NCBI RefSeq assembly: GCF_014200015.1
Contig: NZ_JACHOT010000001.1
Location: 682,001 to 746,000, forward strand
Origin: Aminobacter niigataensis
GTDB taxonomy: Bacteria; Pseudomonadota; Alphaproteobacteria; Rhizobiales; Rhizobiaceae
Length of the DNA stretch: 64,000 nucleotides
Reading direction: 5' to 3'
Positions within the stretch are counted from its first letter, which is position 1. Each line of letters opens with the position of its first letter. Shown piece by piece: positions 39,257-44,059 of the stretch. The notes below the pieces were generated by a model. That model did no database searches. It saw nothing but the letters and a program-made list of their open reading frames with translations, and was not told the origin of the DNA. A program made the translations under genes and the position numbers.

Positions 39257-39712
39257 ATGTCTGGCAGGATGACGTCGTTGTTTCGCCGCGTGGCCAACGG
39301 CGCGGCCTTCAATGCGCGACGGGCGGGCTTGATTGCGCTGGGCATCCTGATGCTTGCCCTCGGCATCATCGGCGCGTTCTTGCCGGTCATGCCGACGACC
39401 ATCTTCCTGATCCTGGCGGCATGGTGTTTCGGTCGTTCGTCGCCACGGATCGAGGCATGGATGCTCGATCATCCGCGATTCGGTCCAGCTTTGCGGGCCT
39501 GGCGCGAGGAGGGTGCCATCCCGCGCAGGGCCAAGATCATGGCCTGGCTCGGCATGGCGCTTGGTTACGGACTGTTCCTGCTTGGAAGACCTGACGTGCT
39601 GGTCGCCACGGCAGTCGCGATTTTCGTCGCCTGCGGTGCCTTCTATGTGGCGACACGGCCGGATCCAAAGCCGAAGCCGGAATTCGCGACCCTTCGCAGG
39701 GACGATGACTGA
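39257..39712 (+). CDS. YbaN family (DUF454) inner-membrane protein
   Basis: The protein has 151 residues. The DUF454 signature is RAGLIALGILMLALGIIGAFLPVMPTT together with AWCFGRSSPRIEAWMLDHP, and four membrane segments are predicted. Its function is not known, although members often lie beside haem-oxygenase or haem-use genes. The N-terminus may start at ATG 39257 or 39269. It follows a possible haem-oxygenase remnant by 16 bp. Confidence 0.82.
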   Translation: MSGRMTSLFRRVANGAAFNARRAGLIALGILMLALGIIGAFLPVMPTTIFLILAAWCFGRSSPRIEAWMLDHPRFGPALRAWREEGAIPRRAKIMAWLGMALGYGLFLLGRPDVLVATAVAIFVACGAFYVATRPDPKPKPEFATLRRDDD

Positions 39713-39932
39713 TGTCGGGAAGTTCGGCGACGAGAGAAAACCTGGCATGACCAGAGCGATTTGGCGTCGACAGTGGCAGGTACTTGCAGGCCAGCCGTAG
39801 AAACCGACTCTTCCCACCGACGTCATGTAGTCCGGGACAGGCTCACTCCGATCTCGTCGCGTTCGTTCTGGCCGACGTGAGCGGTAGCCTACGCTGGGGC
39901 CCTTTCCGCCACGAGAGAGGCCGGTGCTGCTT

Positions 39933-40943
39933 TCATTTTACCCAGCACCATCCGAAAACGCAGCCACGCACCACGACTTTCTGGGAAACAGCGAATGGAT
40001 TCGCATGGGGCAATGCAATGCGGATCAGCCTGGAACGATCCCTTGGTCGCAGCATATTTTGAAACTCTGCCGGTAGGGCATCAGCAATCTGGAGCACTTT
40101 TTCGACGGTGCCTTCGCTGCGATCGCTCCCAGCACTGACGTCGACTTTCAATCCTTCGGTGACGGGGAACAAGTACTCATCCGGGAGGTAGGCCAAAATA
40201 TAGGACCGCCCGCCATTGATCTGAAGAAGTTCGTCGCCAGGCCGTACGAACTGACCGGGAACCGGCACGCGGGAACCAACCACTCCAGCAGTCAGGGCCT
40301 CGATTTTTCCGTCATCATATATTTCCTTCAGCCTGGTGACAGCGTTCTCAGCGACTTGTCGTGACGCCTGAACCATCCGGACCTGTGCGTGATTGTCCAG
40401 GCTTTTTGCTGTCAGTTCAGCCAGCCTTTGTGTCGCCTGGAAGCTTGTGCTCACGGCGTCATCGCGCGTCCGCATCGGGATCAGCCCCTGCCTGGCTATC
40501 TGGTCGAGTCTGGATACCGTCTCGCCGCTTTCGCGCGATGCCCGCTCCGCCAGTGGAAGGAGGGTGGATATCGTCGTCGACTGTCCTTGCAACTCGGTCT
40601 CTTTCACCACCATTTCGCTGGAGCGCACCGAGAGGTCGGCGATTTCCTTGACCATTTCGAAGGACTCGAGCTCGACGAGCAGGGCGCCTTTGTCGACAAC
40701 GTCGCCTTCGCTGACGAGAACCTTGACGATGGTGGCGGGATAGCTCGCCGCCACAACGCGCTTCTCGTTGAGCACGATCCCGTCAGCGGACAGTATGACT
40801 AGCGAGCCGGCGAGGTAATACGCAACCAGCAGGAAAAAGCCCGCCAGCAACAGGAGGTAGATCGTCCTGCCCAGGCGCCCCGAGTGCGATCTTTGCTGCT
40901 TGTCGATATTATCCAGCAGCGTCCTTTTGCGGATGTGTTGCAT
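39933..40943 (-). CDS. HlyD-type periplasmic adaptor of the exopolysaccharide-like cluster
   Basis: The protein has 336 residues from ATG 40943; the longer frame overlaps the glycosyltransferase stop. One membrane segment (residues 27-50) is followed by half of a biotinyl-lipoyl domain (60-95), a coiled-coil hairpin (95-220) and the other lipoyl half near PVPGQFVRPGDELLQING. HlyD and Alg44 proteins link inner-membrane machines to the periplasm. No PilZ domain is fused at the N-terminus, unlike Alg44. It is the third gene of the operon, 10 bp after the glycosyltransferase. Confidence 0.8.
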   Translation of the reverse strand: MQHIRKRTLLDNIDKQQRSHSGRLGRTIYLLLLAGFFLLVAYYLAGSLVILSADGIVLNEKRVVAASYPATIVKVLVSEGDVVDKGALLVELESFEMVKEIADLSVRSSEMVVKETELQGQSTTISTLLPLAERASRESGETVSRLDQIARQGLIPMRTRDDAVSTSFQATQRLAELTAKSLDNHAQVRMVQASRQVAENAVTRLKEIYDDGKIEALTAGVVGSRVPVPGQFVRPGDELLQINGGRSYILAYLPDEYLFPVTEGLKVDVSAGSDRSEGTVEKVLQIADALPAEFQNMLRPRDRSRLIRIALPHANPFAVSQKVVVRGCVFGWCWVK

Positions 40944-40953
40944 CAATGCGTGC

Positions 40954-42231
40954 TCACCATGGTCTAAGCAGACGCACTTTCGCCGGCACATAGTTGTCGC
41001 GATGCGAGCCTGAAGCAAACCATTCGTCGACATAAGCGGTCAGCCGCACAAAGCGCATCACATACGACATGAACAGCGAATAGGCCGGCAGGAAAGGCAA
41101 GTTTCGTCCAAAGGCAGCCCGGCGGGTTATCTGGTTTGCCAGGGCGAGCATTCCGGCGTCGAGCAGTAGCAAAGCCAATTGGAGGGATATCAGGATCGGG
41201 ATGGCTTCGGGCCCGAAATGGGTGGCAAGCCAGAGAAGGTAGATGGGGAATGCGACCGTGCTTGCGACGCTGAAAAGAGCAAAGTCCCATTGGTGAAACG
41301 CCTCGGCGGGGCGGAATTTGGTCCCAAAGGGATTGAGCAGCCGACGATGCTTTCTGAATCTGAGCCAGAAAGCGTCCCGTTCCCATCGCAAACGCTGTCG
41401 AATGTAGGCGTAGACCGTCTCCGGCACGTCAGTGTAGCACAGCGCATCCGGTACAAACGCAATCCGCCAGCCGGCCTGGCGCATGCGAATGGTGACATCG
41501 AGATCTTCGCCGCCGCCGACGTCGAGACCGCCAACCTGAGCCAACGCTTCACGGCGAAAGGCTCCGAATGCTCCCGAGCAACAGGTTACTTGGTCCATCG
41601 ATCCGCTGAAACGTTTGCCCACGGAGATGGATTGCAAATATTCGATTTCTTGGATCTGCGTCATCAGCGTTGCGTCGGCATTTCGCGGGGCGATGTCACC
41701 ACAGGCCGCTCCGACGCGAGGGTCGTCAAAAGCGCGCATCAGCGCTTGGATGGCAAAGCGATCGAACGAGCAGTCGCAATCGACGTTGATGATGATGTCG
41801 CCTTTGGCGATCTCGCAGGCGAGGTTTACGCCGCTTGACTTGCCGCCCCTGACATCGGTCGAGAGGACACAGGTCGCGTCGCCGGAACCCACAATCTCAC
41901 ACGCCACTTTGCTCATCCGGTCGGTTGAGCCATCACTGACAATCACGATCTCGAAGTCGGAAAAAGACTGTTCCCTAAGCGAGCGGACGCAAGCCCGAAT
42001 AGAATCGGCCTCATTATGGCCAATCAGGACAACACTCACTTTGAAGGGCTTGCGATGGGGCTGCGTGATTGGGTCGGACTGGGCTGCTTGTCTTCTTTGG
42101 CTTAGCGCCACCGCAGCAAAGGGCAGGGCGTAGCGCGGCAGATCGAACACCAGCGTGTACCAGAAGATCACAACTACGCTCGACAGGGTCTGCGAATACA
42201 GGAACGAGAGGCCGAATTCGATATCGGTCAC
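40954..42231 (-). CDS. Processive family-2 glycosyltransferase
   Basis: The protein has 425 residues from GTG 42231, whose GTGA overlaps the stop of the TackOD1 gene. Motifs of processive GT2 synthases (cellulose, hyaluronan, alginate) are present: SDGSTD near 99, DCD at 151-153, GGED ending in ED at 242-243 and QRLRW at 279-283. An N-terminal membrane span and two to four C-terminal spans are predicted. It should polymerise a nucleotide sugar while exporting the chain across the inner membrane. The sugar is unknown. Confidence 0.88.
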   Translation of the reverse strand: MTDIEFGLSFLYSQTLSSVVVIFWYTLVFDLPRYALPFAAVALSQRRQAAQSDPITQPHRKPFKVSVVLIGHNEADSIRACVRSLREQSFSDFEIVIVSDGSTDRMSKVACEIVGSGDATCVLSTDVRGGKSSGVNLACEIAKGDIIINVDCDCSFDRFAIQALMRAFDDPRVGAACGDIAPRNADATLMTQIQEIEYLQSISVGKRFSGSMDQVTCCSGAFGAFRREALAQVGGLDVGGGEDLDVTIRMRQAGWRIAFVPDALCYTDVPETVYAYIRQRLRWERDAFWLRFRKHRRLLNPFGTKFRPAEAFHQWDFALFSVASTVAFPIYLLWLATHFGPEAIPILISLQLALLLLDAGMLALANQITRRAAFGRNLPFLPAYSLFMSYVMRFVRLTAYVDEWFASGSHRDNYVPAKVRLLRPW

Positions 42232-43619
42232 GCAATTGCCCCGTCCGAACCGCCCCACAAGATGCGCAGCCTCGGCTGCAGGTGGTCCGATAGAACGGCT
42301 TCGCACATGTTGAGTATGACCTGTGCATCAGTGTCCCTGTCGGATTGCGTCAGATGGAAAAAAAGCACGAAATCGCGCTCGGTTGACGGATGTACAGTGG
42401 CCATGCCCGCCAGATGGCCTTGGAGGTTTTCGGCGAACAATCTGCGGAGGGCAGCAAAGGTCGCTTCCCCGCGCCGACGTACGATCTCGTCGCGGGCTTC
42501 ATAGATCAACTCGGCAACGACGCAATCGTGCAGGACCGGCAGGTCATTCGTGAACGAGCGAAGCTCTTTCTGCAGCCCGTCCGGGCAGTCCCTTAGTTGT
42601 GGTGGCGAATGCAGTGCCTGCCGCGCGGCGTCGGTCAATTGGTAGGTGGCGTAATCGGTCAAGGCATAGGAGTGCAGATCGACTGTCGCTACCCTTTGAC
42701 CATCGATTCCCGCTCCGCAGTCCTGGCACACAAACCCGATTGCCGGCTCAGAAGTCGTGTGGCGGCACTCGCCACATATTTGCACGCTTCCCGGCTTGTC
42801 GTAGTCCTTCCCGTAGTTTCGCAGCTGCTTGCTACATTTCGGGCAGATAAGAGCGTTGTCGCGTTGAAAATCGACCTCCGGGCCAATCTGGGCGCAACTG
42901 TAGTGATGGATCAGCTTTGCTTCATCGAGGTTGGCCGACCGGCAGGTTGGACATTCTTCCCTCACCACAAGCCGGTGCGAGCCGCATTTGTCACATTGAT
43001 GATGCCGGTCGACGAAATGCCTCTCCAACCAGCCCCGGTTTGCAAGAGCTTCCGCGACCAGCACCGTCGAGTTGGTGTCATGGAATCCTTTCATGGCGAA
43101 AAAATACTTGGACTCCGGGACGCGAACTGGCGTGAGGGTTTCGCCTGATAGAAACAGGTGCGCCAGCAGTCTTGAGGCCGGCGAGTCCGCCAGCATGAAC
43201 TTGGGTGACAGTCGGGATCTTCTTTCGGCGAACTTGCTGATGACGCCTGCCGTCTTGATGATCGATTGAGGGTCCGCGACATCAAAATCGACGTCAGTGA
43301 CATGGCTGGATCGGCCCGTCGCATTGACGACTGGCACAAAGCAGAGGCCCCTGGCGCTTCGGAAATCATCGAGTGCCAGAACGTGTCGCTCGTCCGTCAG
43401 TACGATGGCATCGGCATCCCCGCTGTCGACGACTTCGAAAATCTTGCGAAGATTACCGAATTGTCTGCTCGCCTGAGGGAGCAAGGCTACACGCGGAGCG
43501 GGTATGTCGAATTGCTCCCAGATGGACTTGCAATATTCGGCTGAAGTGTAGTTCGGCAGCTGAAAATGATGCTCGGAAATTTCGAGCTTTTCGATTGAGG
43601 AGAAGTTTCGACTCAACAC
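42228..43619 (-). CDS. TackOD1-domain zinc-ribbon protein, probable regulator of the glycosyltransferase
   Basis: The protein has 463 residues from GTG 43619, which has GGAG 7 bp upstream; a TTG at 43649 lacks a site. Cysteine pairs C209/C212, C223/C226, C259/C262, C282/C285 and C298/C301 with the block HHQCDKCGS and FVCQDCGAG define the TackOD1 metal-binding domain, proposed as a signalling output domain. Residues about 30-130 look like a receiver-type fold. Residues 350-463, with RDFVLFFHLTQSDRDTDAQV, resemble a degenerate GGDEF domain. These last two readings are inference. It starts the operon. Confidence 0.75.
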   Translation of the reverse strand: MLSRNFSSIEKLEISEHHFQLPNYTSAEYCKSIWEQFDIPAPRVALLPQASRQFGNLRKIFEVVDSGDADAIVLTDERHVLALDDFRSARGLCFVPVVNATGRSSHVTDVDFDVADPQSIIKTAGVISKFAERRSRLSPKFMLADSPASRLLAHLFLSGETLTPVRVPESKYFFAMKGFHDTNSTVLVAEALANRGWLERHFVDRHHQCDKCGSHRLVVREECPTCRSANLDEAKLIHHYSCAQIGPEVDFQRDNALICPKCSKQLRNYGKDYDKPGSVQICGECRHTTSEPAIGFVCQDCGAGIDGQRVATVDLHSYALTDYATYQLTDAARQALHSPPQLRDCPDGLQKELRSFTNDLPVLHDCVVAELIYEARDEIVRRRGEATFAALRRLFAENLQGHLAGMATVHPSTERDFVLFFHLTQSDRDTDAQVILNMCEAVLSDHLQPRLRILWGGSDGAIA

Positions 43620-44059
43620 GAAGCGACTCCGCTGCAAATGGAAGAGCAAGACATATGTCGAAGTCGGCTAAATTCCGACAAGAATGACTGAAAATTAACC
43701 TTCATTCTATGCAGGTCAATCGCATATAAGAGCTACAATGCCGCTAGCTATTTCGATCTACGGTCGGCCATCTCCACACGCGAATGCAACCGGCGAATCC
43801 GCCCCGCCCATATAGCCAGGCGCCGCTTTCCGCGGGTCCTTCACCCGATCCCGTATCGAAGGCCAGCCGACGACGCATCATTCTCGCAGGCGACCCGCCT
43901 AGCCCAAGCGCACCACCAAAAAGACTGCCGGTTCAACACGCGATGTCCCGTCGCAATCGACGGAGAGCACGTCAGGCGAGCGATTTGGCCTTGCGGCCTT
44001 GATGTGCTAGGGAGCCGTCATATCTCCAGGCGTTCGCTGCTCCATATTTCGAAGAAGCC
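43620..44059. other. 440-bp gap: promoter region of the TackOD1 operon and of dusA
   Basis: No convincing gene is seen; a 72-codon frame on the plus strand at 43784-44002 has an atypical Pro/Ser/Arg composition and no ribosome-binding site. The stretch 43670-43750 is AT-rich and should hold the promoter for the minus-strand operon. A small hairpin (GTCGG, 7-nt loop, CCGAC) lies at 43663-43679. The last 60 bp precede dusA. Confidence 0.5.

Follow-up and report, generated by a model that had tools for sequence, protein, structure and literature searches.

BcsE and PelD are degenerate GGDEF proteins that sense cyclic di-GMP (c-di-GMP) for synthase systems, and BcsE also bears a degenerate REC domain (PMC7439463; papers are cited here by accession number and for the excerpts consulted). 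The TackOD1 domain is far less well placed, its function having been called obscure (PMC5847659). Here we describe three genes from a 64,000-nucleotide stretch of Aminobacter niigataensis DNA (the window) that encode a TackOD1 protein, a family 2 glycosyltransferase (GT2) and an HlyD-type periplasmic adaptor, and that are a single operon, kept together as a unit. On balance, and with a confidence somewhat above even, we favour reading this locus as an operon gained by lateral transfer, which would make an exopolysaccharide of the synthase-dependent kind and in which TackOD1 would be a cytoplasmic signal-input or assembly subunit. The operon is composed as follows:

43619-42228, minus strand: TackOD1 protein gene, first of the operon (GTG start, 463 amino acids; Pfam PF18551)
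42228-42231, minus strand: GTGA overlap, in which the TackOD1 gene stops and the GT2 gene starts, read from the sequence
42231-40954, minus strand: GT2 glycosyltransferase gene (GTG start, 425 amino acids; motifs D, DCD, ED and QRLRW)
40943-39933, minus strand: HlyD-type periplasmic adaptor gene (ATG start, 336 amino acids)

A first-pass annotation of this stretch had described three tightly coupled minus-strand genes, and the sequence bears this out, since in addition to the GTGA overlap a gap of only 10 nt (40944-40953) separates the GT2 gene from the HlyD gene. The three family names that it gave were recovered by Pfam profile searches: the TackOD1 domain scores 153.5 bits against a curated cut-off of 32 (E 6.4e-45, amino acids 144-320), the GT2 matches Glyco_tranf_2_3 (E 1.3e-28) and the adaptor matches HlyD_3 (E 9.2e-12). 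The absence of PilZ, which it had also pointed out, was confirmed in that none of the three proteins has a PilZ match in Pfam at E up to 1. Scans for promoters found 2 against 1.6 expected, which is chance level, and scans for terminators 7 against 3.9 expected, none of them convincingly at the operon end.

Is this gene arrangement conserved elsewhere? The first-pass annotation had made the idea of a system depend on it. Immediately after TackOD1, and co-directional with it, a GT2 of this family is found in 56 of 62 bacterial loci, and an HlyD gene is also present in 55 of those 56, the exception (L074) being cut by the record end; for this reason we conclude that the TackOD1-GT2-HlyD set is a real system. 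The HlyD gene follows the GT2 gene in 40 loci, follows it after a gap of extra-gene size in 5 (L047, L049, L057, L192 and L196), and stands ahead of TackOD1 in 10 (L048, L050, L052, L054, L195, L197, L199, L200, L202 and L204); in L202 the GT2 and HlyD genes are themselves in pieces. The 62 loci were taken from genome draws, 5 other loci and 11 of 15 bacterial plasmid records, with duplicates removed; plasmid records H2, H3, H9 and H14 are not included, matches below the cut-off were not followed, and two loci over the cut-off were set aside, L206 as a fragment at a contig end and L207 for its broken TackOD1 frames. Genomes with TackOD1 over the Pfam cut-off number 9 of 199 in the window's family, 9 of 385 in its class, 15 of 398 in its phylum and 19 of 369 in the class of genome G541, which we take to be Gammaproteobacteria because the G541 GT2 clusters with the Plesiomonas and Photobacterium ones. 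These draws overlap, and those of the window's family, class and phylum include the window's own genome, where the domain occurs once.

The linkage also holds in the opposite direction. A profile built from nine GT2s of the window's clade matches 9 of the 199 family genomes, the same nine that carry TackOD1, each at E 2e-210 or better and with no other match down to 1e-80, a limit that we chose ourselves and that leaves weaker GT2 relatives uncounted. The probability of hitting the same nine genomes by random draw is 9e-16, kinship ignored. In genome G147 the TackOD1 match is below the cut-off and no GT2 match is found at the 1e-80 limit. In the open-access literature searched, one paper uses the name TackOD1 and two mention arCOG06883; the operon was not named in titles or abstract starts, among the matches listed.

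The GT2 carries the motifs D100, D151-C-D153, E242-D243 and Q279-R-L-R-W283, and all 30 of the 30 GT2 rows aligned share D100, D151, D153, D243, Q279, R280, R282 and W283. The DCD, ED and QRLRW motifs of processive synthases that had been claimed for this protein are indeed present, and judging by these motifs we read it, as the first-pass annotation did, as a processive synthase. Columns 42-401 of the family profile align with hyaluronan synthase (E 1e-26), a match that reaches into the membrane part; the best E-value is that of chondroitin synthase (3.9e-30), over a partial length. Assignment to a named family was rejected on curated cut-offs for cellulose synthase, for PgaC (149.5 bits, TIGR03937 equivalog cut-off 422.3) and for NodC (116.5 bits, TIGR04242 equivalog cut-off 550). 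NodC makes short chains and shares QRxRW and the other catalytic motifs; the motifs therefore do not settle the chain length of the GT2 product. It may be that the GT2 is not a polymerase and that a short glycan or glycolipid is exported by HlyD and TolC, as could be argued from scores so far below both equivalog cut-offs and from the exceptional loci L137-L140, which lie with deacetylase or epimerase genes. With the catalytic motifs invariant and the hyaluronan synthase match extending into the membrane part, we regard such a short product as distinctly improbable and keep to the processive synthase. Two related plasmids of Rhodobacterales have galE as a fourth gene (L141:10648-11658 and L144:11559-12569), sharing 4 bases with the end of the HlyD gene; this linkage hints that the substrate could be UDP-galactose or a relative.

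A single hydropathy peak (amino acids 32-50) lies near the N-terminus of the HlyD protein. The best matches of this protein are MdtN and EmrA, all below cut-offs, and the family profile matches resistance-nodulation-division (RND) and EmrA adaptors, so that by sequence it falls among general membrane-fusion families. Nine matches to OEP are found elsewhere in the window's genome, eight of them over the cut-off. In Methylocystis, TolC lies two genes after HlyD (TIGR01844, over the cut-off), and in L047 and L049 an OEP-domain protein is encoded between GT2 and HlyD. In L048, L050 and L054 the HlyD gene is preceded by one for a protein of 673-936 amino acids, a candidate periplasmic or outer-membrane partner; these proteins gave no family match except an AMIN domain in L050.

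The TackOD1 protein of the window can be divided into three parts:

43191-43619, minus strand: N-terminal region (amino acids 1-143), alpha/beta-like by reading and REC-like at best
42660-43190, minus strand: TackOD1 domain (amino acids 144-320), with five CxxC pairs and an HxxC
42231-42659, minus strand: C-terminal region (amino acids 321-463), corresponding to the degenerate GGDEF domain that relatives have, without RxxD here

The 11 cysteines and one histidine of the central domain would fill three zinc sites, and the 11 cysteine columns and H238 are retained in 43-46 of 46 TackOD1 rows, an alignment with three archaeal rows in and three broken rows out. The N-terminal region has no Pfam match at E up to 1. 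Its identification as a REC domain was considered but is not claimed: comparison of the window's clade with 30 REC domains of the same genome (hhalign) first gave 98 percent, but the set contained the REC tails of L039 and L042, and with these removed the value fell to 2.1 percent (E 0.023).

The C-terminal region is the most informative part. A profile of 25 TackOD1 rows matches GGDEF structures among the PDB profiles (E 1.4e-8), and 10 of the 25 members have a Pfam GGDEF match at E up to 1, the best at 2.6e-9 and that of L047 over the cut-off. When 12 gammaproteobacterial rows were aligned by hhalign with 23 GGDEF domains, all those recovered from the window's genome, the result was 97.3 percent (E 2.7e-11). 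As judged from these profiles, the C-terminus of the gammaproteobacterial proteins is clearly a degenerate GGDEF domain. RxxD is present at the I-site position in 41 of 61 TackOD1 proteins, that is, 25 of 45 (L141 and three archaeal rows left out) and 16 of 16 in the further loci L190-L205, where for L196 and L202 it was read from second fragments; in the former 25 it stands five residues before the lost GGDEF motif in 21 and four residues before it in L044, L046, L133 and L136. GG[DE]EF itself occurs in none of the 49 sequences of the first set, nor in the further-loci set, which rules out an active diguanylate cyclase. Two plasmid-borne members, L074:7662-9044 (Aeromonas caviae) and L078:7590-8945 (Plesiomonas), are nonetheless annotated as diguanylate cyclases despite the lost signature.

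What, then, could the TackOD1 protein do in the window's own branch? In a tree of 43 GT2 rows, which carries a long-branch warning and in which deep joins are unsure, the window's GT2 falls in a supported clade of 18 rows (98/96), and RxxD is absent from 18 of 18; outside it, L045 and L144 also lack RxxD. Four of the 18 have an N-terminal REC domain (by Pfam in L039, L042 and L143, by annotation in L075) and form one clade (100/99), and the REC members from Roseibium and Palleronia adjoin Hpt and other two-component genes. The remaining 14 have no REC, 8 having been scanned by Pfam and 6 judged by length or annotation. Together with zinc ligands far better conserved than the sensor part, these losses would fit a protein that is a fixed structural or assembly factor, a zinc-held scaffold that gates nothing, in a clade that senses nothing and leaves its synthase under transcriptional control only. 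The REC domain present in one clade inside the same branch suggests that signal input still mattered there, and we consider a pure scaffold unlikely, while taking it seriously. The first-pass annotation had put TackOD1 in the regulatory place, as a zinc-ribbon protein gating the synthase. A likely regulatory partner it is, because of the degenerate GGDEF domain of relatives and the REC domain of four of them, features that the annotation had passed over; the evidence does not come from the zinc ribbons. The proposed gating is in this way partly supported by sequence comparison, and the zinc core as the gate is possible.

The analogy with BcsE and PelD makes TackOD1 most likely a subunit of the synthase, for signal input or for assembly. 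We infer that a polymer is made, how it is exported, that c-di-GMP is bound and that TackOD1 and GT2 are in contact, and these steps may be put together in the following manner. The GT2 would polymerise a nucleotide sugar and pass the chain through its own membrane part, and the HlyD protein would link it to an outer-membrane channel encoded elsewhere in the genome. The TackOD1 protein would act from the cytoplasm, as a zinc core with a degenerate GGDEF domain attached. Among gammaproteobacterial and many alphaproteobacterial relatives, c-di-GMP might be sensed through the kept RxxD, as in PelD and BcsE; the window's clade has lost RxxD, and one of its sub-branches has a phospho-receiver (REC) instead. 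The window protein, lacking either known input, could respond to some other signal or have a scaffold role.

A number of observations weigh against this reading. Some concern the window itself: its TackOD1 protein has neither RxxD nor REC and no Pfam GGDEF match at E up to 1, and hhalign matches its clade to GGDEF only weakly, though colinearly, at 14 percent (E 0.002) or, under other settings, 7 percent; we suppose that the C-terminus of the window protein retains the GGDEF fold. Only two hydropathy peaks over the threshold are found in the GT2, and no outer-membrane exit protein was seen beside the window operon. Others come from the wider survey. The TackOD1 frame is broken in L005, L037, L141, L196 and L202, with GT2 and HlyD open in the first four, and TackOD1 may therefore be dispensable, or a negative regulator, unless some of the broken frames are sequencing errors. 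The adjacent co-directional GT2 is absent in 6 of the 62 loci (L137-L140, L191 and L205), and none was found in the 10 kb read of L207. In L137-L139 the TackOD1 proteins are shorter (341-366 amino acids) and have as neighbours a deacetylase of PIG-L type and a hexapeptide transferase (Pfam on L137 only), which we read as a second glycan context; in L137 and L139 an epimerase and a GT2 lie on the opposite strand. In L140 an epimerase adjoins TackOD1 and an HlyD-type gene is about 6 kb away, but the 12 kb read contains no GT2. L191 and L205 keep RxxD with no GT2 in 15 kb, and three haloarchaeal plasmid copies stand alone, without GT2.

Since RxxD persists in L191 and L205 with no GT2 nearby, the sensor may serve other targets; for the same reason we slightly lowered our confidence in the favoured reading and raised the standing of the idea that TackOD1 acts on something else, such as DNA or a pilus, and shares the operon for co-expression only. 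Archaeal REC-TackOD1 and REC-winged helix-turn-helix-TackOD1 forms and thaumarchaeal pilus loci (excerpts of PMC5847659 and PMC4858521) also speak in its favour. It would leave unexplained why TackOD1 and the GT2 occur in an identical set of nine family genomes and are so consistently adjacent on the same strand, and even after this adjustment it strikes us as very unlikely; the synthase subunit remains the reading that we prefer. Two neighbourhoods are recorded here in their own right: the L191 TackOD1 gene (L191:6624-8015) is followed by genes resembling phoB, phoR and pst, by reading, and a haloarchaeal TackOD1-like protein (L073:7860-8843) is encoded near the nitrous oxide reductase genes nosZ and nosD.

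One genome of the same genus has an empty site in place of the operon. The approximate limits of the cassette are:

39708-43980, no strand assigned: inserted cassette, the flanks lying about 53 bases apart without it in the same-genus genome G143

G143 follows the window as far as 39707, resumes at 43981 and has no operon in between; another genome of the genus, G051, matches only from 43982 on. It is because of the empty site in G143 that we think the cassette is likely to have moved in one piece. The G+C content of the operon is 57.4 percent, against 63.4 percent in the rest of the window, and the Aminobacter plasmid pAA02 carries the trio with a TackOD1 89 percent identical to that of the window. 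In the soil bacterium Aminobacter aminovorans, identity to the window's proteins is 89 percent for TackOD1 and 92 percent for the GT2. Repeats around the cassette are imperfect pairs only, with nothing usable.

A wider proposal, which we put forward tentatively and as slightly short of an even prospect, is that these loci represent an undescribed exopolysaccharide secretion class of Alpha- and Gammaproteobacteria, partly mobile, with an HlyD-TolC exit and a zinc-cored adaptor gating the synthase, whose inputs would have been swapped between c-di-GMP on a dead GGDEF domain, a phosphorelay through REC and, in the window's clade, a third signal. The linkage gives bacterial TackOD1 members a testable job in polysaccharide synthesis. 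Also, the family offers a natural series of synthase partners, some with a likely c-di-GMP site, some that have lost it and some with a phospho-receiver, and it predicts that some annotated diguanylate cyclases are dead-enzyme receptors.

How does this locus compare with the systems already described? The alginate synthase Alg8-Alg44 likewise combines a GT2 synthase with an HlyD-like membrane-fusion protein; in Alg44 the c-di-GMP receptor PilZ sits on the HlyD protein, whereas the window operon has no PilZ and a separate TackOD1 protein. PgaC/IcaA, NodC and the hyaluronan synthases share with the window's GT2 a common sequence family and the processive motifs, although, being below both cut-offs, it is a member of neither PgaC nor NodC. 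To our knowledge, PelD and BcsE lack the TackOD1 zinc core. PelD, which belongs to the Pel system, and BcsE, which belongs to cellulose secretion of the E. coli type, are cytoplasmic degenerate GGDEF sensors with RxxD for a synthase-dependent exopolysaccharide (excerpt of PMC7439463), as is proposed for the relatives described here, but in the present family the GGDEF-like part is joined to that core, and RxxD has been lost in the window's clade. BgsA, the mixed-linkage beta-glucan synthase of Rhizobiales, is another rhizobial GT2 synthase without PilZ (excerpt of PMC5567048); what sets the window system apart is the linkage of its GT2 to a separate protein. Finally, the archaeal response-regulator TackOD1 proteins have the same zinc-ribbon domain (PF18551) in fusions with REC (excerpt of PMC5847659), whereas bacterial TackOD1 proteins end in a GGDEF-like region and their genes mostly adjoin a GT2-HlyD pair.

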